From a virus: DNA of 27,837 nt. Where the stretch lies: positions 1-27,837 of IMG/VR virus record IMGVR_UViG_3300032236_001165; one strand, written 5' to 3'. The position numbers were made by a program, and so were the translations under genes. The number at the start of each line of letters is the position of its first letter. Position 1 is the first letter of the stretch. Below the pieces are notes generated by a model. The model saw only the letters and a list, made by a program, of their open reading frames with translations. It searched no databases and had not been told where the DNA came from. Below, piece after piece: positions 5,585 to 27,837 of this stretch.

Positions 5585-6910
5585 TCACTCCAAATAGTCA
5601 TTAACGAGTTCACTCGCCTTTGACTGCTGGTGGCGGATTCGGTGCAGATACCTTTCCGTCGTTACGATTGACTGGTGACCTAACCTCTCTTTGACCTCAT
5701 GCACATCCACCCCGTTCTTTAACAACTGGGTAGCGTTAGCGTGCCGAAGGTCGTGAGTGGTGGGATACCAACCAATACCTGACTTGTTGATGGCTTCGTT
5801 CCAAATGGCTCGCCACTTGTCACGAGGTAGATGGCTTTCGCTAAGGCTTTTGCTATGGCTTTCGCTTTTGCTAAGGCTTTTGCTAGTGCTTTTGCTAAGG
5901 CTTTCTACCTTGCCCTTTCCCTTGTCCTTTCTATAGTGATTGCGGTACTCCCTAACCGCTTGCTTACAGTCCTCACACCGACAACCGCCGACATTGTACG
6001 AATACGCCGTTGCGTGTTGGAATGTTCTGCTTCCAATGATGTAAGGCTTTCCTACTTTTTGGGTAGGACTTCCTATTTTACTAGCCTTCTCAACCAGGTG
6101 CTTTGAGAAGACCAATTCTTCTTTTGATAAGGCTTTTGCTATTACAAACGTCTTTATCTCTGCTACGAGCTTATCAGACAGCACAACTGTTCTTTTGTTG
6201 CCGTTCTTTGTCGCCGCCACTACGAGAAATCTTTTCCCCTCGGAATGATATTTAGAGCCTACATCTGAAACAGTTCTTCGTACATAGACTTCTTTAGATT
6301 GAAAATTGAAGTCTTTTACTCTTAACTCTGTTGCTTCCCCGTACCGGCAACCGGACGCTATGAGGAATCTTGCTAAAAGACGACTACCTTCTGTGGGCAA
6401 GTTCTTTAGTATCTTATTGAAGTCCTGCGGGTCAAGTGTGTAGGTGGGGTCAGGCTTTGGTACTGGTATGCGTATGCGGTGGGTGGGATTGGTGGCTATC
6501 GCTTCGTCATCTACGGCGAGCCTAAAGAGAGAACCTAAAGAAGTCTTTAGGTGGGAGATAGTGCTTGGGCTTAGACCCTTACTTGCAAGTTCATCTAGTA
6601 ATGCTTTAATGTCTTTCTTGGTGATTGCGGAGATGCGCCTAGTACCTAAAGTCGGTTGGGCATACTTCTTTAGCAGGGTTAAATAAGTCTTACGAGTAAT
6701 GACCCTAATCTCCTTGTTGTTCGCAAGTTGTTCAAGGTAAGTGTTGAATGTGTTTTGATTATTGGGCATGAGATTAAACTCGCCTTCTTCGGCAAGTAGT
6801 CCAGCGTTAAGTGCTTTAGCCCTAGAGTTGAATGTGCCTACCGATTTGACTTTTCCGTCATGGCGGTAATAGGCGGTAAATCTTCCATTTCGTTCTACTG
6901 TGTAAGCCAT
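5585..6910 (-). CDS. int: Tyrosine site-specific integrase with an inserted Cys motif
   Basis: Catalyses integration or excision of the element. From ATG 6910 (441 residues): an N-terminal arm-binding-like region (1-45), a core-binding SAM-like domain (about 52-145), then the catalytic domain with Arg189 (SGCRYGEA), Lys235 (TKNGNKR), His386-x-x-Arg389-His390, His412 (LGHQS) and nucleophile Tyr421. All six residues are present, so it should be active. Between Lys235 and the HxxR box lies an insertion with a CRC-x2-C motif (Cys310, 312, 315) and a Ser/Lys repeat (336-358). The frame extends to 6973, but this overlaps the 6944-6986 terminator. It is coupled to the transglycosylase gene. Confidence 0.92.
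   Translation of the reverse strand: MAYTVERNGRFTAYYRHDGKVKSVGTFNSRAKALNAGLLAEEGEFNLMPNNQNTFNTYLEQLANNKEIRVITRKTYLTLLKKYAQPTLGTRRISAITKKDIKALLDELASKGLSPSTISHLKTSLGSLFRLAVDDEAIATNPTHRIRIPVPKPDPTYTLDPQDFNKILKNLPTEGSRLLARFLIASGCRYGEATELRVKDFNFQSKEVYVRRTVSDVGSKYHSEGKRFLVVAATKNGNKRTVVLSDKLVAEIKTFVIAKALSKEELVFSKHLVEKASKIGSPTQKVGKPYIIGSRTFQHATAYSYNVGGCRCEDCKQAVREYRNHYRKDKGKGKVESLSKSTSKSLSKSESHSKSLSESHLPRDKWRAIWNEAINKSGIGWYPTTHDLRHANATQLLKNGVDVHEVKERLGHQSIVTTERYLHRIRHQQSKASELVNDYLE
5831..5905 (-). repeat. Short tandem repeat in the integrase gene (Ser/Lys coding)
   Basis: Imperfect repeats built from GGCTTT(T/C)GCTA units encode SLSK/SKSE blocks at residues 336-360 of the integrase, a likely flexible or length-variable linker just before the HxxR catalytic box. 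Confidence 0.8.
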
Positions 6911-6917
6911 AACTGCC

Positions 6918-6923
6918 AGCCTA
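6918..6923 (-). promoter_or_regulatory. Putative -10 (TAGGCT) for the integrase, leaderless spacing
   Basis: On the minus strand TAGGCT is followed by seven bases and the integrase ATG at 6910, directly downstream of a strong terminator. No clear Shine-Dalgarno or -35 is visible. Confidence 0.3.
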
Positions 6924-6943
6924 CCAGCGAGTAGCAAATAGAA

Positions 6944-6986
6944 CAAAAAAAGGGAACAGATTGCACTTGGCAACCTGTTCCCTTTT
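6944..6986 (-). terminator. Strong terminator ending the long minus-strand operon
   Basis: On the minus strand a stem of about 19 bp (AAAAGGGAACAGGTTGC with its complement, one G-U pair) closes a CAAGT loop and is followed by a T-run. It separates the 7.0-16.8 kb operon from the integrase. Confidence 0.93.
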
Positions 6987-12293: not shown

Positions 12294-14303
12294 TTAAGCA
12301 TTAACAAGATTGCGCTTGATTGACACTTTCACAAGTTCTTTACCGAGTGAGAGAATGTCTTTTGCATTTGCGATTGAAGTCATTAACTCAAACGAATGGC
12401 GATACTGATTGAGTTGTTCTGCATTAGGTTGATAGCCACCTGTGATTAAGGCTTGGCAAGTAAGAACACCAGCGTTCTTCATCTCAACTACTGCCTTCTC
12501 TCCTTTGTCTGTCTGCCATGCGCCGTCAGTAATCATGAATAGAATCTTGATTGCTTTGTCGCTCTCTGCAAGAACACGCTTTGCATAGAGAATTGCAGAC
12601 TCAGGATTAGTGCCACCACTTGCGCCCGAATCACGAACAGTTGTGCCAGCCTTATCATCAGCACCATAAAGAAGATGAGTGCCATAATCAAACGCCACAA
12701 CAGTTGTGCGTGCTTCAACACGCTCTAGTGCCTTCTTGATTGCCCACATAGATTTGTAAGCGTTATCAGCATTATCGCCGTCCATGCTTCCGCTTCTATC
12801 AAGAAGAATGACCGCTTCAATACTCACTACATCATCACGACCCTCACTCCACTCATCAAACACAGAGTCAAGGTCATCACCACGCAAGTATCTATCGGCA
12901 TTTAATTTTCCAGCACGCTCTCCTGTAAGCCATGCAGGGTCGTAGTCAGCACGCAAACGCTCTAACTCAACACCGAATTGCTTTGCAGTAATCGCAAGGT
13001 CATCAGGTACTCGTACCTCATTGTAGTTAGCCTTTTTCGGTGTCTGCTCGTTACCACCATTGAGGTCTGACTCAATACCTAACTGATTTGCGATTGAGTT
13101 AATTTCTTTTGCAAGAGAATCAACTACATCAGAGAGAATGTCGTTGAGAGTATCTGTGACTTGTGAATTAGTACCAGTAGTACCTTCTTTATTACCTGCA
13201 CTCTTACTTGGTGATTGAGTCGGCTTCTCTGAATCAGAATCAGAATCATTGAAGTCATCATCACCGAAGTCATCACCGAAGTCATCAGAGTTCATTGGTG
13301 CAGGGCAACCATTCTTAGGCGCACTAGGCTTTTGCACCTCGGACTCATCACCAGCAGAATCAGAAGATGAATCTTCTTTTGTATTTTCTTTTGGTGTTGT
13401 GTCAATAGTTATCTCCACAACTTTCTGATTTGCTTTTGCTTTGTCACGCTCTTGCTCGCTCTTAGTTGCAGGGCGATTGGAAGATGACTCGTATCCGTCA
13501 GTAGGTCGTGTGTCGTGTCCATGAGGATTTGGTACACGAATGATTACTGTCACTTCACCTTCACCTTCTCCGTTACCTTCACCGCCATTTGGATTATCCA
13601 TTGGTGGCAACTCTTTGAGTAACTCATTGAATTGTTGAATGAGTGAGAAGGCACGCTCTGTGTTGTCATCATTACCAGTAAGAATCAACGAGTTGTATTC
13701 GTCAATTACATTGGCGAGTTCCTGTTGAATCTCAGGCTTAATGAAGTTGTCACTTGATAACTGTCGCAACTCAACTGGGAGATACTTGCGACCATACACA
13801 AGAGGGAATGAACGACCGATTGCTTCTTCATTAGTCATCAAGTAATCAACCATAGTTGCAGTAAGCCATGACTTAATTGAAGGCAACCAACCAGTTAAAA
13901 GAAGTTCAATACGAGAGTCTTCTAAACAGTTGAATGATTGCCACAATTCTTTTGAGTTGTCTTGGCTCTTGATTAGTTGAACAAGATTGCTTCCGTTACG
14001 AGGCGTGTAACGAAGATGACCGAGTTCATGAAACGCAACTCCATTGTGTGAAGCGATTGAACGAGAAGTAAAGTCATCTTTAATCTCTGCAAGATTAAGC
14101 CAAACTTCTTTTGTGCTACTCCAAGCAGGAGAAGCCATGTCATGTCGTTCAACTACATTGACACTTATCTTGTGTGAAGTAAGAACAGAGAGTGTTTTAC
14201 TGAATACACCAGCGAGTGCAGTAATGCGCTTACGCTTTAATGTTTCACGCTCTTGCTTCTCTGATTGTGCTTCTTCATGAAGTGTAGGAATGTATGTACG
14301 CAT
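12294..14303 (-). CDS. CobT-like metallopeptidase-motif + VWA protein
   Basis: A 669-residue partner of the adjacent AAA+ ATPase. The N-terminal domain has FHELGH (His92-Glu93-x-x-His96) and FNCLEDSRIE at 124-133, a pairing typical of CobT/VWA-like metallopeptidase-domain proteins. The centre (about 235-390) is acidic and low-complexity with Gly/Glu and Asp/Ser runs. The C-terminal VWA domain has a full MIDAS: DRSGSM near 503, GGTNPES near 562 and ITDG near 592. Its ATG begins directly after the AAA+ stop. In known pairs (CobS-CobT, NorQ-NorD, MoxR-VWA) the ATPase and VWA protein form a complex that inserts metal or remodels a target; the target here is unknown. Confidence 0.85.
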   Translation of the reverse strand: MRTYIPTLHEEAQSEKQERETLKRKRITALAGVFSKTLSVLTSHKISVNVVERHDMASPAWSSTKEVWLNLAEIKDDFTSRSIASHNGVAFHELGHLRYTPRNGSNLVQLIKSQDNSKELWQSFNCLEDSRIELLLTGWLPSIKSWLTATMVDYLMTNEEAIGRSFPLVYGRKYLPVELRQLSSDNFIKPEIQQELANVIDEYNSLILTGNDDNTERAFSLIQQFNELLKELPPMDNPNGGEGNGEGEGEVTVIIRVPNPHGHDTRPTDGYESSSNRPATKSEQERDKAKANQKVVEITIDTTPKENTKEDSSSDSAGDESEVQKPSAPKNGCPAPMNSDDFGDDFGDDDFNDSDSDSEKPTQSPSKSAGNKEGTTGTNSQVTDTLNDILSDVVDSLAKEINSIANQLGIESDLNGGNEQTPKKANYNEVRVPDDLAITAKQFGVELERLRADYDPAWLTGERAGKLNADRYLRGDDLDSVFDEWSEGRDDVVSIEAVILLDRSGSMDGDNADNAYKSMWAIKKALERVEARTTVVAFDYGTHLLYGADDKAGTTVRDSGASGGTNPESAILYAKRVLAESDKAIKILFMITDGAWQTDKGEKAVVEMKNAGVLTCQALITGGYQPNAEQLNQYRHSFELMTSIANAKDILSLGKELVKVSIKRNLVNA

Positions 14304-15641
14304 TTATTCACTTACCTTTCCGGTGAGTTCTAGTTCAAGATTGTGGCGTTGTGAATCTAAAAGAAGTTTCACAGATGAGCGTTCATCATCTCTGAAATTA
14401 TTAACGAAGTTATCAACTGCGAAGTCGTAGTTGAGGTTCTGTGCTAAATCAACAAACTGCTTTAGCAAACGAGTTGAGATTGGTGTTTCATAAACACCAG
14501 CGATTGCGTCATCACGCATTGACTTAGCAAGGTCTAACAATGTTGAAGAAGGAATAAACTTCTTTTCAATGTTAGTGTCGTACTCAAAGTTCAACTTCAC
14601 ATAGAAGCGGTCAGAGAACGCTTCATTAAACTTAGAAGTACCTCGGTACGAATCGTTGTAGCACATAGCGATAAGAAGATTTGGGTGAGCAGTAATAACT
14701 TCTCCTTCATGTTCAAGAAGTGTTAATACTCTGCGGTCATCTAATACACCATGTAATACAGAAGCGATTTTCTGTGGAAGGAAGTTCGCTTCGTCAATTA
14801 CTAACACTCCACCATGTCTAAAGAAGTGTGTGAATAATCCGTCACGCCAAACTAACTTGCCGTCAGTATCAGGCACTAAGCGACCGAAGAATTGTGAAGG
14901 CTCTACACCTGCGTTGCATGACATAGACCCAAACTCCAAACCCTTCTTAGCAGAGTAAGTCATGAGTGAAGTTGTCTTTCCTGTACCAGCATGACCTTGA
15001 ATCGCTACATTCTTTTTAGTTGTCATAGCGAAGTCATAGATTTGTTCTTCTGTTAGACCACCAGCAAACTTGCGTGGTACATAAGTGCGTACTGACTCGC
15101 TAGTTAAAGAAGGAATGTATGCGAGTGTGCTTTCTTCTTTATCCGCACGCTCTACTCGTTCAATAACTATCGGTGTGTATGTAGATTTGTTTTGCACCTC
15201 GGACTCCTTCTTGATAGTTGCAGACTTATCAGAGCGACCATCACTCCGATACTTACTTAGTAGTGCAGGGTCTTGCTCAATTAGTTGTGTTACTTCATTG
15301 ACTACATCTTCAATAGTGCGAGATGAATCAAGATTGGTATGTCGTAGTCGGTATTGCTTAGTGAGTTTCTGAATCAACACATTTGGTATTTCATTATTAG
15401 ATAGTGCAACTTCATCAACAGTTGTTAATGGTGTTGATAGCACTTCACCAATAATCGGATAAGTAAGTGTGCCGATTTCATGATAGGTATTGAGGTCACG
15501 CTGACTCCATGCGTTGCTCTCACCACGACCGCCATTCGTTACTCGCATGAATGTATGAATTGCGCCGTTATGACTTGCGATAATGAGTTGCTTAGTATCA
15601 GTTGCATTTACTTGACCACTTACGAGGATTGCGTATGACAT
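14304..15641 (-). CDS. MoxR/CobS-like AAA+ ATPase
   Basis: 445 residues. An N-terminal region of about 190 residues has no known match. The AAA+ core follows: Walker A GHAGTGKTT (216-224), the MoxR-type GRLVPDTDGKLVWRDG (253-268), Walker B VLVIDEANF (279-287), sensor-1 Asn329 and an Arg finger in AFSDRF (Arg345). Upstream of the VWA partner with no gap, so subunits are probably made together. Such ATPases form hexameric rings that act on a VWA partner's substrate. The start follows GGAATAAATAA. A cobaltochelatase-like role is a hypothesis based on the partner and the B12-dependent reductase nearby. Confidence 0.88.
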   Translation of the reverse strand: MSYAILVSGQVNATDTKQLIIASHNGAIHTFMRVTNGGRGESNAWSQRDLNTYHEIGTLTYPIIGEVLSTPLTTVDEVALSNNEIPNVLIQKLTKQYRLRHTNLDSSRTIEDVVNEVTQLIEQDPALLSKYRSDGRSDKSATIKKESEVQNKSTYTPIVIERVERADKEESTLAYIPSLTSESVRTYVPRKFAGGLTEEQIYDFAMTTKKNVAIQGHAGTGKTTSLMTYSAKKGLEFGSMSCNAGVEPSQFFGRLVPDTDGKLVWRDGLFTHFFRHGGVLVIDEANFLPQKIASVLHGVLDDRRVLTLLEHEGEVITAHPNLLIAMCYNDSYRGTSKFNEAFSDRFYVKLNFEYDTNIEKKFIPSSTLLDLAKSMRDDAIAGVYETPISTRLLKQFVDLAQNLNYDFAVDNFVNNFRDDERSSVKLLLDSQRHNLELELTGKVSE

Positions 15642-20635: not shown

Positions 20636-21114
20636 GCTTTGATTATCACAAAGCAATGACAGAAGGTCACGGCTATAACGAAGAGATTGCTCGTCGTTTG
20701 AGAGCTGAGGGCATCAAGTGCACAGTTCCGGAGTTAACGTTAGTAAGCAGTGCTGCTGAGATTGCTCACATGACTAAGACCGATAAAGACATCATCTGTG
20801 ATGACTTAAATTTGGTATTGGAAGTTAAGAGCCGTTCTCTTAGATTTACAGGCGTTGTAAAGAAGTTTCCTGATTGGGACATCATTGTTGATACTGTCTC
20901 CGGCTTTGATAAGAAGGAGGTGAAGCCTTACGCCTACATCATGATTTCTCAAGTTACTCAAGAGACATTGGTAGTACCTACCAGTTCATTCCCCACTTGG
21001 ATAAAAGAGAAACGTTTTGACCCGTTCCGTAAACATTGGGACACATTTTATAAATGCCAGAAGGATGAGTTCTGGACATGGAATGAATTTATTACTAATT
21101 TGAAGGGGATGTAA
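20623..21114 (+). CDS. PD-(D/E)XK-like nuclease (tentative)
   Basis: 163 residues beginning at TTG 20623, chosen because AGGAGG lies six bases upstream. The centre reads KTDKDIICDDLNLVLEVKSR (52-71): an Asp followed by a strand and Glu67-x-Lys69, matching the D ... ExK core of PD-(D/E)XK nucleases. Helices before (YNEEIARRLRAEG) and a strand after (YAYIMISQV) fit that fold. Possible roles are DNA repair, recombination or host-DNA degradation. Coupled to the WhiB gene by a one-base overlap. Confidence 0.6.
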   Translation: MGELGFDYHKAMTEGHGYNEEIARRLRAEGIKCTVPELTLVSSAAEIAHMTKTDKDIICDDLNLVLEVKSRSLRFTGVVKKFPDWDIIVDTVSGFDKKEVKPYAYIMISQVTQETLVVPTSSFPTWIKEKRFDPFRKHWDTFYKCQKDEFWTWNEFITNLKGM

Positions 21115-21389
21115 TGAAGGTCGGTAATAACGCAATTTATGCAATCGTTGATGGCGATGAAGATATGAGTTGGACATCTCAAGCCTCTTGCATAGGAACA
21201 GACCCAGAAGCTTTCTTTCCAGAAGATAAAGGCTATGACTACACACCAGAGGTAAAACGTATCTGTAATAACTGCCCTGTTAAAAATGAATGCCTAAGCT
21301 TTGCCGTTAGATATCGTGTGCAGGGCTATTGGGGTGGAACTACAGAGCAAGAGCGTCGTCGTTTAAGGCGTTACAACTTAGTTGCTTAA
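21114..21389 (+). CDS. whiB: WhiB-family iron-sulfur transcription factor
   Basis: A 91-residue actinobacterial-type regulator. Four conserved Cys (26, 51, 54, 60; C ... CxxCxxxxxC) bind a [4Fe-4S] cluster, and GYWGGTTEQERRRLRR (71-86) is the G[VIY]WGG turn with the basic DNA-binding tail. Mycobacteriophage TM4 encodes a WhiB that interferes with a host WhiB, so this one may likewise act on host cell-division genes or phage promoters. Its stop overlaps by four bases with that of the convergent HNH gene. Strong indicator of an actinobacterial host. Confidence 0.93.
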   Translation: MKVGNNAIYAIVDGDEDMSWTSQASCIGTDPEAFFPEDKGYDYTPEVKRICNNCPVKNECLSFAVRYRVQGYWGGTTEQERRRLRRYNLVA

Positions 21390-21894: not shown

Positions 21895-22156
21895 GGTCTA
21901 TGGGCCATATGCTGATAAGCAAAAGGGTGGTCGTAAGAGAATGGTCAAGTACAACAACGAGACCGGCAAGATGACCTCTACTAATGCAGCCCGTTACAAG
22001 AAAGAACAACAACTAGGGCGCAAACTCCGCAAGGATGAAGATGTTGACCATACCGACAATAACAAGCACCATGACGGTATCAAGAACCTTAAGGTTATGA
22101 GTCACTCAAAGAATGTAGCAAAAGGCAACCAGCATAGAAAGAAGAAGGCTAAATAA
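21884..22156 (+). CDS. Small HNH-type nuclease domain protein (90 residues)
   Basis: Start ATG 21884, after AAGGGG; an upstream in-frame TTG at 21869 is less likely. The first half is basic (KQKGGRKRMVKY). The second half has RKDEDVDHTDNNKHHDGIKN followed by LKVMSHSKNVAKGN, the H ... D-N-R/K-x-x-N-L ... N pattern of HNH homing-type domains such as those in phage I-HmuI relatives. It overlaps the endolysin start by one base. Confidence 0.75.
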   Translation: MTVKVYGPYADKQKGGRKRMVKYNNETGKMTSTNAARYKKEQQLGRKLRKDEDVDHTDNNKHHDGIKNLKVMSHSKNVAKGNQHRKKKAK

Positions 22157-22965
22157 TGGCACTAGGCAATGTAGGTAATCCAGTCCCACCAGTAACAACA
22201 GCTCAACCAGGAACAGCAGCTCGTATGCTTGAAGTTGCTAAGTCACAGGTTGGCGTTATTGAGGGTCCAAAAGACAACGAAACAATCTATGGAGCTTTCA
22301 CAAAGACTGACTTCCAAGCATGGTGTGGCGCCCTAATGATGTGGTGCGCTGATAAAGCTGGAGTAAAGATTCCTAACACTGTATACACACCAACAGGTGC
22401 AGCAGCCTTTAAGAAGATGGGTAAATGGGCAGATGCCGCTAATGCTCACCCACAACCAGGTGATTTGATTTACTTCTCATTTATCCCACATGCTCTTCCA
22501 TCTAGTCCAATTCAACACGTCGGTATTGTGGTTAAGGACAACGGGGATGGAACCGTAACAACTGTTGAAGGAAATACAACTCCTGACTCAAAGCCAAAGG
22601 GTTCCCCTAATAACGGCGGAGAATGCGCTATGAACGTCCGTGCATACAAGGTGGATAACAAGCGTCACCTCTGGTGTTCTATCGTCGGATTCGGGCGCCC
22701 AGACTATGCAGATGCGACCTCTGACCATCCAGCTACCCCACCAGCTCCTAAATCTATCCCACCGTTCCCAGGACAGATTAAGCCTGGCGATAAGGGTGAC
22801 GGAGTCAAGCTCATCCAGCAAGCCCTTGATTTGGACGCTGACGGCGAATACGGCCCTGCTACAAAGAAAGCAATTATCGCAATTCAGGACAGTCACGACC
22901 ATTTGGACTCAAATGGCGTCGTAGGACCAGCTACCTGGGCTGAGATTATGAAGCATCTGGACTAA
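22156..22965 (+). CDS. Endolysin: CHAP amidase/peptidase with peptidoglycan-binding domain
   Basis: 269 residues. The N-terminal CHAP domain (about 22-180) has catalytic Cys57 in AWCGALMMWC, His121 in IQHVGIVV and Glu138 in VEGNT. After a Pro-rich linker (190-205) comes a PG_binding_1 domain: IKPGDKGDGVKLIQQALDLD and DGEYGPATKKAI, ending VVGPATWAEI. It would cut host peptidoglycan at lysis, after release through the holin. No signal peptide is seen, which agrees with holin dependence. A terminator follows immediately. Confidence 0.92.
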   Translation: MALGNVGNPVPPVTTAQPGTAARMLEVAKSQVGVIEGPKDNETIYGAFTKTDFQAWCGALMMWCADKAGVKIPNTVYTPTGAAAFKKMGKWADAANAHPQPGDLIYFSFIPHALPSSPIQHVGIVVKDNGDGTVTTVEGNTTPDSKPKGSPNNGGECAMNVRAYKVDNKRHLWCSIVGFGRPDYADATSDHPATPPAPKSIPPFPGQIKPGDKGDGVKLIQQALDLDADGEYGPATKKAIIAIQDSHDHLDSNGVVGPATWAEIMKHLD

Positions 22966-22984
22966 TCGGACATTTACCTAAGAG

Positions 22985-23018
22985 CCCCCCTGGATGCTAT
23001 CCTAGGGGGGTTCCTTAT
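22985..23018 (+). terminator. Rho-independent terminator after the endolysin
   Basis: CCCCCC-T-GGAT and ATCC-TA-GGGGGG form a stem around GCT with one bulge, followed by TTCCTTATT. It separates the endolysin from the HslV-like gene, which has its own GGGGG ribosome site. Confidence 0.85.
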
Positions 23019-23030
23019 TAGGGGGTAGAG

Positions 23031-23594
23031 ATGACAACCATCGTGGGAGTCCAGTACGACGATAGAGCAGTCATTGTTGCTGATAATCAAGTAACTGACT
23101 TCTCAACAAGTTCAATGCGTCGTCTTAATCATCCAGATATGAAGAAAATTGCACAACGAGGACCCTTCCTGGTTGCAGGTAGCGGCGAGGTTTCACCATG
23201 CGATATTGCACAACACTTTTGGAATCCACCAAAGATTACGGTAAAAGACCGTGAAGACCTCTACCACTATGTAATTACAAAGGCTATGCCTTCTTTGCGT
23301 AAATGTTTAACCGATAATGGCTTTGACTTTAATGAAGGCAAAAGCGATAGCAAAGCAGATGGTGGCGAACAACGTTTCCGTTTCATTATGGCTGTTGGTG
23401 GAGAGCTTTTTGATATCGCAGACGATTTATCGGTTTGCCGAACAGATGACGGATTTTACGGCGTAGGGTCTGGAGCAGACTTTGCTTTAGGAGCTTTGGC
23501 TGCTGGAGCAACTCCAGAAGAGGCTGTGGAGATTGCTTGTCGCTTTAGTGTTTATTCTTCAGGACCGCTCCTAGTTATGGAGCAAGAGAAGTAA
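23031..23594 (+). CDS. HslV/proteasome-like Ntn hydrolase (threonine peptidase)
   Basis: 187 residues, close to HslV (about 175). After Met removal Thr1 is exposed: TTIVGVQYDDRAVIVADNQV aligns with the HslV start, placing Asp17 (ADNQVT) exactly as in HslV. A Lys pair in PDMKKIAQRG stands for Lys33 after a five-residue insertion; GPFLVAGSGE, GFYGVGSGADFALGAL and a final VYSSGP also fit the family. It should be an N-terminal-threonine hydrolase. No HslU or other unfoldase lies next to it. It may process phage or host proteins, mature virion proteins, or use a host ATPase. It follows a terminator, so it is a new transcription unit or read-through. Confidence 0.82.
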   Translation: MTTIVGVQYDDRAVIVADNQVTDFSTSSMRRLNHPDMKKIAQRGPFLVAGSGEVSPCDIAQHFWNPPKITVKDREDLYHYVITKAMPSLRKCLTDNGFDFNEGKSDSKADGGEQRFRFIMAVGGELFDIADDLSVCRTDDGFYGVGSGADFALGALAAGATPEEAVEIACRFSVYSSGPLLVMEQEK

Positions 23595-23611: not shown

Positions 23612-23917
23612 ATGGAACAACTTTCAAATAGAAAGCAAAAGATTGAAGACCGCAAAGCTCTTCAACTAGAGACTCTTATTGCTAAAAAACAACAGGAAGC
23701 TACAGAGCGCTGGACTAACGTTCAGATTAAGGCTGCTGGGTTTCAATCTGTGCTGGACTACGCCGTAGACCAGTACAATCAACACAAGGAAGAATTAGAC
23801 GAAGAAGTGATTACAAAAACAGAAGAAATGATTAAAGAACGTCAAGCAGAAATTGAAAAGTTCTTGATGACAGAAAAAGACTTGTATTTAGAAGCCATGG
23901 GTATTCAAGCTGACTGA
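23612..23917 (+). CDS. Coiled-coil hypothetical protein (101 residues)
   Basis: Almost entirely charged helix: RKQKIEDRKALQLETLIAKK and KHEELDEEV-like heptads, then KTEEMIKERQAEIEKFLMTE. A dimeric coiled coil is likely. It follows the HslV-like gene by 17 bases; a scaffold or adaptor role is conceivable but unproven. No strong ribosome site is seen. Confidence 0.55.
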   Translation: MEQLSNRKQKIEDRKALQLETLIAKKQQEATERWTNVQIKAAGFQSVLDYAVDQYNQHKEELDEEVITKTEEMIKERQAEIEKFLMTEKDLYLEAMGIQAD

Positions 23918-23927
23918 TAATAGGTCA

Positions 23928-24389
23928 GTGAGCAAAAACAACTCGTTTGAAACCGGCAAGGGTAAACACGGCAAGAAAGCTGTCATCTTTGATTTAGATG
24001 GAACTCTTGCTGATACCAACGACCCTAAAGGTCACCATAAGATTAAGCACGAAGGGTTTCGTCAGCACATCAATGAGGCTGATGCAATTCCAAAGACTGT
24101 AGAAAAACTCCGTAAAGCCAAAGACAAAGGCCGAGACGTAGTCATCCTCACTGCTCGTTCTGCCCACTACCGTACAGACACAAAGTCCTGGCTCCATAAG
24201 CACGGCATCCCCTACGACTCTCTTGTTATGCGTCCCACTGACGACCAACGCAAGGACAAAGTCGTAAAGGAAGACCTTCTCAGAGAAGATGTCTTGCCTA
24301 ACTTTAAAGTGAAGAAAGCCTACGACGATAAGTCAAAAAATGTTAAAATGTTCCGTAGCGAGGGCATTGAGGCGAAGAGAGTCAAATGA
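23928..24389 (+). CDS. HAD-superfamily phosphatase (PNKP 3'-phosphatase-like)
   Basis: 153 residues starting at GTG 23928. Motif I VIFDLDGTLAD has both Asp22 and Asp24; motif II is VILTAR (72-77); Lys near 111-114 and AYDDKSKNVKMF (131-142) give motifs III and IV. The layout resembles the 3'-phosphatase domain of T4-type polynucleotide kinase/phosphatase, without a kinase part. It may repair 3'-phosphate ends in DNA or RNA, or act on nucleotides. Coupled to the holin candidate by an ATGA overlap. Confidence 0.8.
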   Translation: MSKNNSFETGKGKHGKKAVIFDLDGTLADTNDPKGHHKIKHEGFRQHINEADAIPKTVEKLRKAKDKGRDVVILTARSAHYRTDTKSWLHKHGIPYDSLVMRPTDDQRKDKVVKEDLLREDVLPNFKVKKAYDDKSKNVKMFRSEGIEAKRVK

Positions 24390-24778
24390 AAGACGGATTG
24401 AAACTAACAGGAAATATTATCCTACGTATTATCGCAGTATTCGCTGCTTCAGGCTTATCAGTCATCGGTGCTGGCTCTGTCGCTGGAATCTCTGTACTTA
24501 AAGCTGTAACAGTTGCTGGTCTTACAGCAGTTGCTGCAGTTGTTGAAAAGCTTGCTCGTGGATTCATGAATGATGGAAAGCTTGACATGGATGAAATCAA
24601 CGCAGCATTTGCAGCAGTTGATGTTAACTCCAAGACTGCAGCTGACCTTCAAGTTGAAGCTAAGCAAACAGGTCAGGACATTGTTATCTCAGCACAGGGT
24701 GGAACAACTGCTGTTGCTCCTGCAGCTCCAGCAACTCTTGATGTTCCTGCAGAAGCAGCTGACCCTAACTACAACTAA
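24386..24778 (+). CDS. Holin candidate (two membrane helices)
   Basis: 130 residues. Residues 11-32 (IILRIIAVFAASGLSVIGAG) and 36-56 (LKAVTVAGLTAVAAVVEKLA) are hydrophobic helices, followed by an acidic, then Ala/Pro-rich soluble tail. Two TM segments with a hydrophilic C-terminus, about 1.4 kb from an endolysin lacking a signal peptide, fit a holin of actinophage type. A different small membrane protein remains possible (for example 19931-20017). Its stop overlaps that of the convergent FmdB-like gene. Confidence 0.65.
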   Translation: MKDGLKLTGNIILRIIAVFAASGLSVIGAGSVAGISVLKAVTVAGLTAVAAVVEKLARGFMNDGKLDMDEINAAFAAVDVNSKTAADLQVEAKQTGQDIVISAQGGTTAVAPAAPATLDVPAEAADPNYN

Positions 24779-26073: not shown

Positions 26074-27837
26074 TTGAAACAACTGCGTACATTCGCAGCA
26101 CAATCTGAAGTTCGTAAACGGATTACACAAACAAGTTTAGGTGGAGCTACTCTATTCTGCCTTTCCTTGGCATTCGCTCAAGGCGCTCACGCTGACGAGG
26201 TCACTCAAAATCCCGTTGTTGTTCCATCAAACGATTCAACGAATAGCGTTGTGCTTCAGCCGATTGTTGCATCCACGGTTGTTGATGGCGCCACGGTTGT
26301 ATCGGTTTCCAGCGCTTCAGGCACATTACAGCCAGTACCCACAGCAGAACCACAGGCATCAGGAGCATCAGACCAAACGCCAACACCAAACTCAACCACA
26401 TCCACGACTCCATCTACTTCTTCTTCTTTATCAAACTCTTCGTTAAACGTTTCGTCAACTCCTGCTCCCGCTCCAACGCAGAGTCCATCGCCTTCACCAA
26501 GTCCAACATCTTCTTCCAGTCCTTCTGATAATTCAGCGCAGCCTGTTGTGCTTGAGCCAATTCCTGCTCCAAGCGCCGAGTCTTCTTCCACCATAGCTCT
26601 GCCACAAATAGCCTCCAAGATTGAAACTGCTACCGCTACGGTGCAGATTGCTGTAACTAACTCTACTACCACTCTCCAAGCAATCCCTGATGTAACTACG
26701 AAAGTTGCAGAACTTCCTGTAGCTCAGGCAGCGATATCAACGGCAACTGCTGCAATTCAAGATACGACTACAAAAGTTACTCTTGCACAGCAGGCCTACG
26801 ACACTGCTACGGCAACTGCTGCTGTTGTACCTGTTGCTCAATCTGGAGTAGACGCTGCAACTGCTGTAGTTGCGGATAAAACGTCTATTGTTGTTCTTGC
26901 ACAAACTGCAGTTGATACTGCAACTGCCACAGTCGCATCAACTGCCTCAACAGTCGCTGCGTTACAGGATGCCCAACCTGCATTAGATGCTGCCGCTGCT
27001 TGCACAGAGGGTTCAGCATGCGTTCACTTCTATACTAATAATGCTGAGCTAGGTCCTTTGCATGACCAGATTTCTGCAGCACAAACATCAGCAGACGCTG
27101 CAGTTGCTGCAGCAGCTGACGCAGTTGTAGCTAATCAAGCAGCAGAAGATGCTCTCAATGCACATACCCCAATTGTTATTGCAGCTCAAGAAGCTAACGC
27201 TGTAGCTAGAGATGCTAACGATGTGGCTCAAGCCGCTTTTACTACAGCTAATCAAGCTGTTGCTGACCAACAGGTAGTAGTAACGCAAGACGTTACTAAT
27301 GTGGCAACCACACAAGCTGCAGCAACGGCCTCTGCTGCACCTGGGTTAAATGTAACTGTATACAGTGACCCGCAGTATGCAGCTCAACCACCAGTAGGTG
27401 CGGGAACCGTTGTTCGTACAACAACTACTTCAAACATTAACTATCAGTGGGGTAGTGGTTCAGTTATGGGCGGACCGTCTGACCGTGTACAAGTTAAGTT
27501 TGAAGGAAATATTACTTCTGATACAACAGGAAATATTCAGTTCTATGCACCAGCAGATGACGGTACCAAGCTTTACGTAAACAACACTCTAGTTATTAAC
27601 GACTGGCGTGATAAAGGTGGTGGAGGTTCACAGTCCGCACCTATTGCGTTTACAGCTAATGTTCCTAAGCCAATTACACTTTGGTTTTATGAAAATGGTG
27701 GAGGCGCTTCTGTTTCTCTCTACTGGTACAAAGCAGGAAGCTCTGGGTACACACTTGTTCCAGCATCAGCATTTACACGTGGAACAGTTGACCCTGCTTT
27801 AGCAGCGGCTGTTACATCTGCTCAAGGAACACTTCAA
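26074..27837 (+). CDS. Secreted PA14-domain protein (C-terminus beyond window)
   Basis: At least 588 residues, open to the window end. TTG 26074 follows GAGGGG. Residues 1-40 are a signal peptide: basic start, hydrophobic TSLGGATLFCLSLAFAQ, then GAHA|DE cleavage. A Pro/Ser/Thr-rich stretch (about 85-165) is followed by an Ala/Thr/Val-rich repetitive helix (about 175-420, e.g. TAVDTATATVASTASTVAAL), which looks like a stalk. A PA14 domain (about 421-562) has NIQFYAPADDGTKLYVNNTL, VINDWRDKGGGG and YENGGGASVSLYW. PA14 usually binds glycans. A signal peptide is unusual for a virion fibre, so it may be exported by the infected host, or be host-derived. Confidence 0.85.
   Translation, partial: MKQLRTFAAQSEVRKRITQTSLGGATLFCLSLAFAQGAHADEVTQNPVVVPSNDSTNSVVLQPIVASTVVDGATVVSVSSASGTLQPVPTAEPQASGASDQTPTPNSTTSTTPSTSSSLSNSSLNVSSTPAPAPTQSPSPSPSPTSSSSPSDNSAQPVVLEPIPAPSAESSSTIALPQIASKIETATATVQIAVTNSTTTLQAIPDVTTKVAELPVAQAAISTATAAIQDTTTKVTLAQQAYDTATATAAVVPVAQSGVDAATAVVADKTSIVVLAQTAVDTATATVASTASTVAALQDAQPALDAAAACTEGSACVHFYTNNAELGPLHDQISAAQTSADAAVAAAADAVVANQAAEDALNAHTPIVIAAQEANAVARDANDVAQAAFTTANQAVADQQVVVTQDVTNVATTQAAATASAAPGLNVTVYSDPQYAAQPPVGAGTVVRTTTTSNINYQWGSGSVMGGPSDRVQVKFEGNITSDTTGNIQFYAPADDGTKLYVNNTLVINDWRDKGGGGSQSAPIAFTANVPKPITLWFYENGGGASVSLYWYKAGSSGYTLVPASAFTRGTVDPALAAAVTSAQGTLQ

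Follow-up and report, generated by a model that had tools for sequence, protein, structure and literature searches.

A BPH-like, stand-alone proteasome-type peptidase gene shared by two families of putative actinobacterial phages

The gene at positions 23031-23594 (plus strand) of a 27,837-base virus record, which was analysed over its whole length and is called the window here, starts with ATG and codes for 187 amino acids beginning M-T-T-I-V. Its product is predicted to be an N-terminal-threonine Ntn hydrolase with the proteasome fold along the whole chain, and by both profile and fold its nearest solved relative appears to be the unfoldase-free peptidase BPH and not HslV. We consider it reasonably probable that this is a late, accessory, self-compartmentalising peptidase of the BPH-like type, catalytically intact as far as can be predicted, which in the lytic phase acts on proteins of the host or the phage. 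The family, the fold, triad conservation, selection, the lack of an HslU/ClpX-type partner encoded by the phage and dispensability among close relatives all came out of the computation, and our confidence in this reading comes mostly from the biochemical identity of the protein.

The assignment to the stand-alone, proteasome-like N-terminal-threonine peptidases draws on PHROG, PDB profiles, fold and residue conservation. The window protein matched PHROG_1040, named 'peptidase HslV family', over residues 1-184 (E 9e-29); by profile it is a member and nothing excluded membership, the family name being an annotation with no tested function behind it. The match to Pfam Proteasome (PF00227) reached 22.4 bits, exactly at the cut-off, with residues 2-25 aligned without a gap, and on the HslV model TIGR03692 residues 2-26 fell on HslV positions 1-25, also gapless and with Thr1 and Asp17 included, in agreement with the alignment on which the original prediction of an HslV-like peptidase had been based. 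HslV identity proper is nevertheless rejected, because the curated equivalog models gave only about 20 bits (20.2 and 19.4 against cut-offs of 137 and 157.75, respectively). A profile built from 35 viral sequences, whose identity to the window protein ranged from 26 to 87%, retrieved BPH first from the PDB (1.7e-11 and 1.6e-9) and HslV next. The AlphaFold2 monomer, run on the same 35-sequence alignment, had a pLDDT of 91.2 and a pTM of 0.87, with pLDDT below 50 only at residues 106-111. In VIA-align searches with this model BPH ranked first (Z 18.4, 2.7 A over 163 residues), model residue 2 pairing with residue 1 of the BPH chain. BPH, HslV and proteasome beta all gave Z of 17-18 over about 160 residues, and since HslV and proteasome beta lie within one Z of BPH and are thus tied with it, the fold match identifies the superfamily and not the subfamily. 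The structure comparison placed the protein in no other Ntn family, which upholds a threonine-nucleophile peptidase of the proteasome fold.

BPH (beta-proteobacterial proteasome homolog; PDB 5ovs, 5ovt and 5ovu) shares with the window protein this fold, the Thr1, Asp17 and Lys33 residues and a long flexible pore loop, and no unfoldase partner has been found for either. BPH forms tetradecamers, binds epoxomicin at Thr1 and has no known unfoldase (PMC5777263). The window protein differs from it in being phage-borne, only about 20-25% identical and known here as a predicted monomer only. Furthermore, the pore loop is highly acidic in BPH, whereas the window loop FNEGKSDSKADGGEQ is of mixed charge and not strongly acidic; in the predicted model, the disordered residues 106-111 coincide with the pore-loop position of BPH. 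With HslV the protein has in common the proteasome-beta fold, the threonine exposed behind the initial Met and the gapless N-terminal alignment, but it has a long pore loop and no HslU besides scoring so low on the HslV models. Proteasome homologs of phages are already known as a kind, PPH and AAH being phage-associated group I proteasome homologs (Fuchs, Alva and Lupas 2021, PMC8665760). PPH is the published phage precedent and, like the window protein, is phage-carried, group I-like and free of a propeptide, but it has about 140 residues and is devoid of helix H2 (PMC8665760), whereas the 187-residue window protein is modelled with helices at 54-63 and 77-95 ahead of the pore loop. Given these two helices and the loop that follows them, the hallmark of PPH is missing from the window protein.

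The active-site residues are almost invariant in the family. Conservation was counted over the 208 distinct sequences found among the intact copies, and the equivalents of Thr1, Asp17 and Lys33 (T2, D18 and K39 of the window protein) were all kept in 207 of them. Thr2, whose loss in homologues would have spoken against the assignment, was present in all 208, and Asp18 and Lys39 in 207 each. The Lys pair previously pointed out does exist (K38-K39), K39 being the conserved member and the Lys33 equivalent. G52 corresponds to Gly47, and G146-S147-G148 to the Ser129 region, in which both glycines were kept in 208/208 and position 147 was Ser in 176 and Thr in 28. The only relative with a broken triad in the alignment (L061) is highly divergent, and its alignment may be wrong. 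One residue counts against the favoured reading: the equivalent of Asp166 varies, being Asp in 90/208 and Ser in the window protein. Among close relatives dN/dS was about 0.03-0.15, many of the dS values being close to saturation, and the low ratio indicates that the protein is under purifying selection.

In the window, the conserved upstream neighbour is an endolysin (22156-22965, plus strand) with CHAP/NlpC-P60 and PG_binding_1 parts recognised by domain and PHROG matches. Between the two genes lies a strong GC-rich hairpin with a weak U tract (22982-23013, plus strand), followed by a Shine-Dalgarno-like AGGGGG (23020-23025, plus strand) read from the sequence 5' of the ATG. The terminator proposed in front of the gene is thus borne out as a strong, terminator-like hairpin, but it was missing from the list returned by a terminator scan. 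The 70 nt 5' of the window ATG fold with an MFE of -28.9, and an MFE below -15 over this distance was found for 63/80 myophage-type copies versus 8/96 podophage-type ones. Downstream, a 101-aa protein, coiled-coil-like by eye (23612-23917, plus strand), is the conserved neighbour, found in 95/193 loci at a median offset of +617 bp and with no credible family match in Pfam or PHROG. The gene had been described as lying between an endolysin and a holin candidate; the endolysin held, but the supposed holin (24386-24778) has a single significant PHROG match, which is labelled 'nuclease'. Elsewhere in the window, an apparently secreted protein with a PA14 domain and a long stretch rich in Ala and Thr (26074-27837) runs off the window end, a relative in G002 carrying extended A/E/R-rich repeats, and a tyrosine integrase (5585-6973) contains a Ser/Lys-rich low-complexity insert (SLSKSTSKSLSKSESHSKSLSES).

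A WhiB-family regulator is also encoded in the window (21114-21389, plus strand; PF02467, E 1.2e-19), and WhiB genes occur in the phages DSL-LC01 and, by sequence, ct2KA10. As WhiB is an actinobacterial marker in the literature (PMC6802176), the window virus probably infects an actinobacterium. A freshwater habitat of these phages is presumed from the lake source of DSL-LC01 and the literature (PMC6802176).

The lack of an unfoldase of the HslU type was confirmed well beyond the immediate neighbourhood, since no AAA_2 (HslU/ClpX-type) match above cut-off was found in 21 records, among them the window, three closed relatives of about 100 kb and the peptidase-bearing phages of about 39 kb. The only AAA+ protein recognised in the window by the searches made is a CobS/MoxR-type ATPase (AAA_5; 14304-15641, minus strand), which is not of the HslU/ClpX type. 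A CobS-like AAA+/CobT-like VWA pair spans 12294-15641 on the minus strand and is likewise present in the closed relatives and in DSL-LC01. That this ATPase unfolds substrates for the peptidase is extremely improbable in our judgement: the two genes do occur together in the window, the closed ~100 kb relatives and DSL-LC01, but AAA_5 exceeded the cut-off only in the large phages; the ~39 kb phages have the peptidase without such a match, which makes it independent of that ATPase in them. The CobS-like gene, moreover, lies on the strand opposite to the peptidase and adjoins its own VWA partner, the usual MoxR/CobST pairing. Alternatively, the peptidase could dock on an AAA+ unfoldase of the host, such as the actinobacterial proteasomal ATPase, and redirect it against host or defence proteins. 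The proteasome fold, the actinobacterial host indicated by WhiB and the missing phage partner would all be in line with such docking, which we still regard as quite unlikely because BPH works with no known unfoldase (PMC5777263).

The family to which the window belongs consists of phages of about 95-100 kb with a contractile-tail (myophage-type) gene set: sheath, tube and baseplate J are annotated in the related phage Alone3, and sheath-, tube- and baseplate-like ORFs, labelled by eye in G002, are common to it and G032. Genomes were called closed where they had terminal direct repeats of 123-127 bases, on which grounds G001, G002 and G003 were taken as closed, as were G029, G031 and G044. The typical gene succession runs from endolysin through peptidase, 101-aa protein and (PNK phosphatase) to a small hydrophobic protein. 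When loci were fetched by the hydrophobic protein, the peptidase was upstream in 18/63 and missing there in 45/63. Most long relatives without it at that site have a divergent copy elsewhere (35-38% identical), which where read stood at the start of a gene block, and a third peptidase type ('MTCIVAI...') was found in further relatives. No genome among the 13 large ones searched had two copies. In some ~100 kb relatives the divergent copy is followed by tandem paralogues sharing 'VDDxGNxRVDFVWGxFPxQPNDQR' (L372:2123-3730, L373:4985-7606, L375:5877-8197), and in G002 a subtilisin-like protein with a signal-peptide-like start, by eye, is encoded near the peptidase (L201:11876-12772; G002 91876-92772, minus strand).

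A second family that carries the gene comprises podophage-like genomes of about 39 kb (ct2KA10, OX376640 and many IMG/VR contigs), kin by their portal (44%) to Streptomyces Beephvirinae. Here terminase and portal are followed by the peptidase, small ORFs, a protein of 1,500-1,900 aa, scaffold and MCP, and the peptidase starts directly after the portal in 66 of the 75 loci with enough flank, a position not seen in the window's own family. The slot behind the portal is the usual place of a prohead protease, which suggested that the peptidase might be one of a different fold, made together with the portal and acting in the procapsid to trim or clear an internal virion protein, the scaffold or the portal. 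We therefore put this reading to the test on closed relatives, and on balance hold it to be rather unlikely. Besides the gene order of ct2KA10-like phages, it gains from the occupation of the portal slot by divergent peptidase lineages, from the lack of an S78 protease in the searched records of either family, and from the large family, in which most ~100 kb relatives keep one copy, which, where read, belongs to the late region and precedes TerL (in G002 the terminase, portal, scaffold and MCP genes lie about 10 kb downstream of it, and in G025 terminase follows at about the same distance). The regularity of the 66/75 slot is also more than a generic cargo gene would predict and so counts against the reading that we favour.

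A prohead protease should be kept wherever the head genes are, and this is not what we found. The closed genome G044, whose portal, scaffold and MCP are 86%, 65% and 68% identical to those of ct2KA10, has no peptidase (best E 3.5 in a profile search at maximum sensitivity), and the Streptomyces phages Kumquat and Alone3, with identical head-gene order, lack it over their whole records. The closed G029 and G031 had zero copies too. So did G033, although with a repeat of only 55 bases its lack of the gene is weaker evidence, as is that in G032 and G046, which have no terminal repeat. The gene is thus dispensable among close relatives. Podophage loci without it have instead a gene of about 76 aa or one of 84-86 aa in the portal slot; the 76-aa gene, seen directly behind the portal in L326, L328, L345, L350, L368 and others, was never alongside the peptidase (0/65 peptidase-bearing loci against 9/19 others). 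In addition, two phages have a separate capsid protease besides the peptidase, seen as an S78-type domain in DSL-LC01 and as an annotated capsid maturation protease in Lifes, and the surroundings of the gene in Pumpernickel, D'Alembert, MTATph1 and phAPEC8 are tRNAs, methyltransferases, metabolic or hypothetical genes, scattered and often non-virion neighbourhoods that favour an accessory role. The maturation of virion proteins, one of the functions first suggested for the gene, is therefore weakened as an obligatory step by the closed relatives that do without it, while the constancy of the portal slot still speaks for it. A broader version, in which a threonine protease of the proteasome fold takes part in virion morphogenesis or genome ejection in two presumed-freshwater actinophage families, is conditionally needed and is interchangeable with the 76-aa protein at the portal slot, we consider unlikely; if true, phage assembly proteases would gain a new fold class.

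The peptidase lineage has also moved between these unrelated phages. A tree of 51 representatives interleaves the large and the small family, with at least 3-4 changes of family label forced by well-supported branches, and the one podophage slot is filled by divergent lineages. This interleaving shows that the gene has been exchanged between ~100 kb myophage-type and ~39 kb podophage-type phages.

Under the accessory reading that we prefer, host methionine aminopeptidase would take off Met1, leaving Thr1 exposed as the nucleophile, which Asp17 and Lys33, to judge by their conservation, may assist. By analogy to BPH, the subunits probably assemble as a homo-oligomeric ring that encloses the active sites in its chamber and bears a flexible pore loop at about residues 97-114, and could cleave peptides or unfolded and flexible proteins with no need of an ATPase. 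BPH itself has no known substrate, so the analogy covers the mechanism and not the purpose. The endolysin and virion-gene block in which the gene lies points to an accessory gene of late infection, a timing read from the neighbourhood only, and its most likely job during lytic growth would be the trimming or removal of a protein of host or phage origin, and not an obligatory step of head maturation.

Stand-alone peptidases of this class had been thought rare in phages, a view that the numbers do not support. tblastn matched 90 phage records, IMG/VR scans, which overlap, returned 61 relatives with the window protein, 202 with the profile, 3 with the DSL-LC01 protein and 144 with the ct2KA10 protein, and the gathered loci held at least 273 intact copies with 208 distinct sequences; PHROG_1040 exists as a family and phage homologs have been published (PMC8665760). 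As to a cellular origin in sequenced hosts, two short-pattern scans of genome contigs gave no relative, which shows only that no close one turned up. Cellular relatives with about 25-31% identity are found on Rhizobium/Sinorhizobium plasmids, and the one on Sinorhizobium fredii GR64 plasmid pSfreGR64b (L401:4001-4546; record 355985-356530), annotated 'hypothetical protein', sits inside a nitrogen-fixation cluster, with nifQ on one side, iron-sulfur cluster/nifS genes on the other and rpoN near. A proteasome-like peptidase inside a nif cluster is worth separate attention.

Lastly, three findings are new: a lineage of the peptidase in actinophages, the passage of the gene between phages of different tail type, and the either/or occupation of the portal slot. 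The 2021 study saw AAH in no phage of actinobacteria (Fuchs 2021, PMC8665760), and phage proteasome homologs now reach a large lineage in actinobacterial phages, where that gap had been noted for AAH. The either/or portal slot provides a direct test system for the function of an unfoldase-free proteasome-like peptidase, a question that concerns BPH and its relatives as well.
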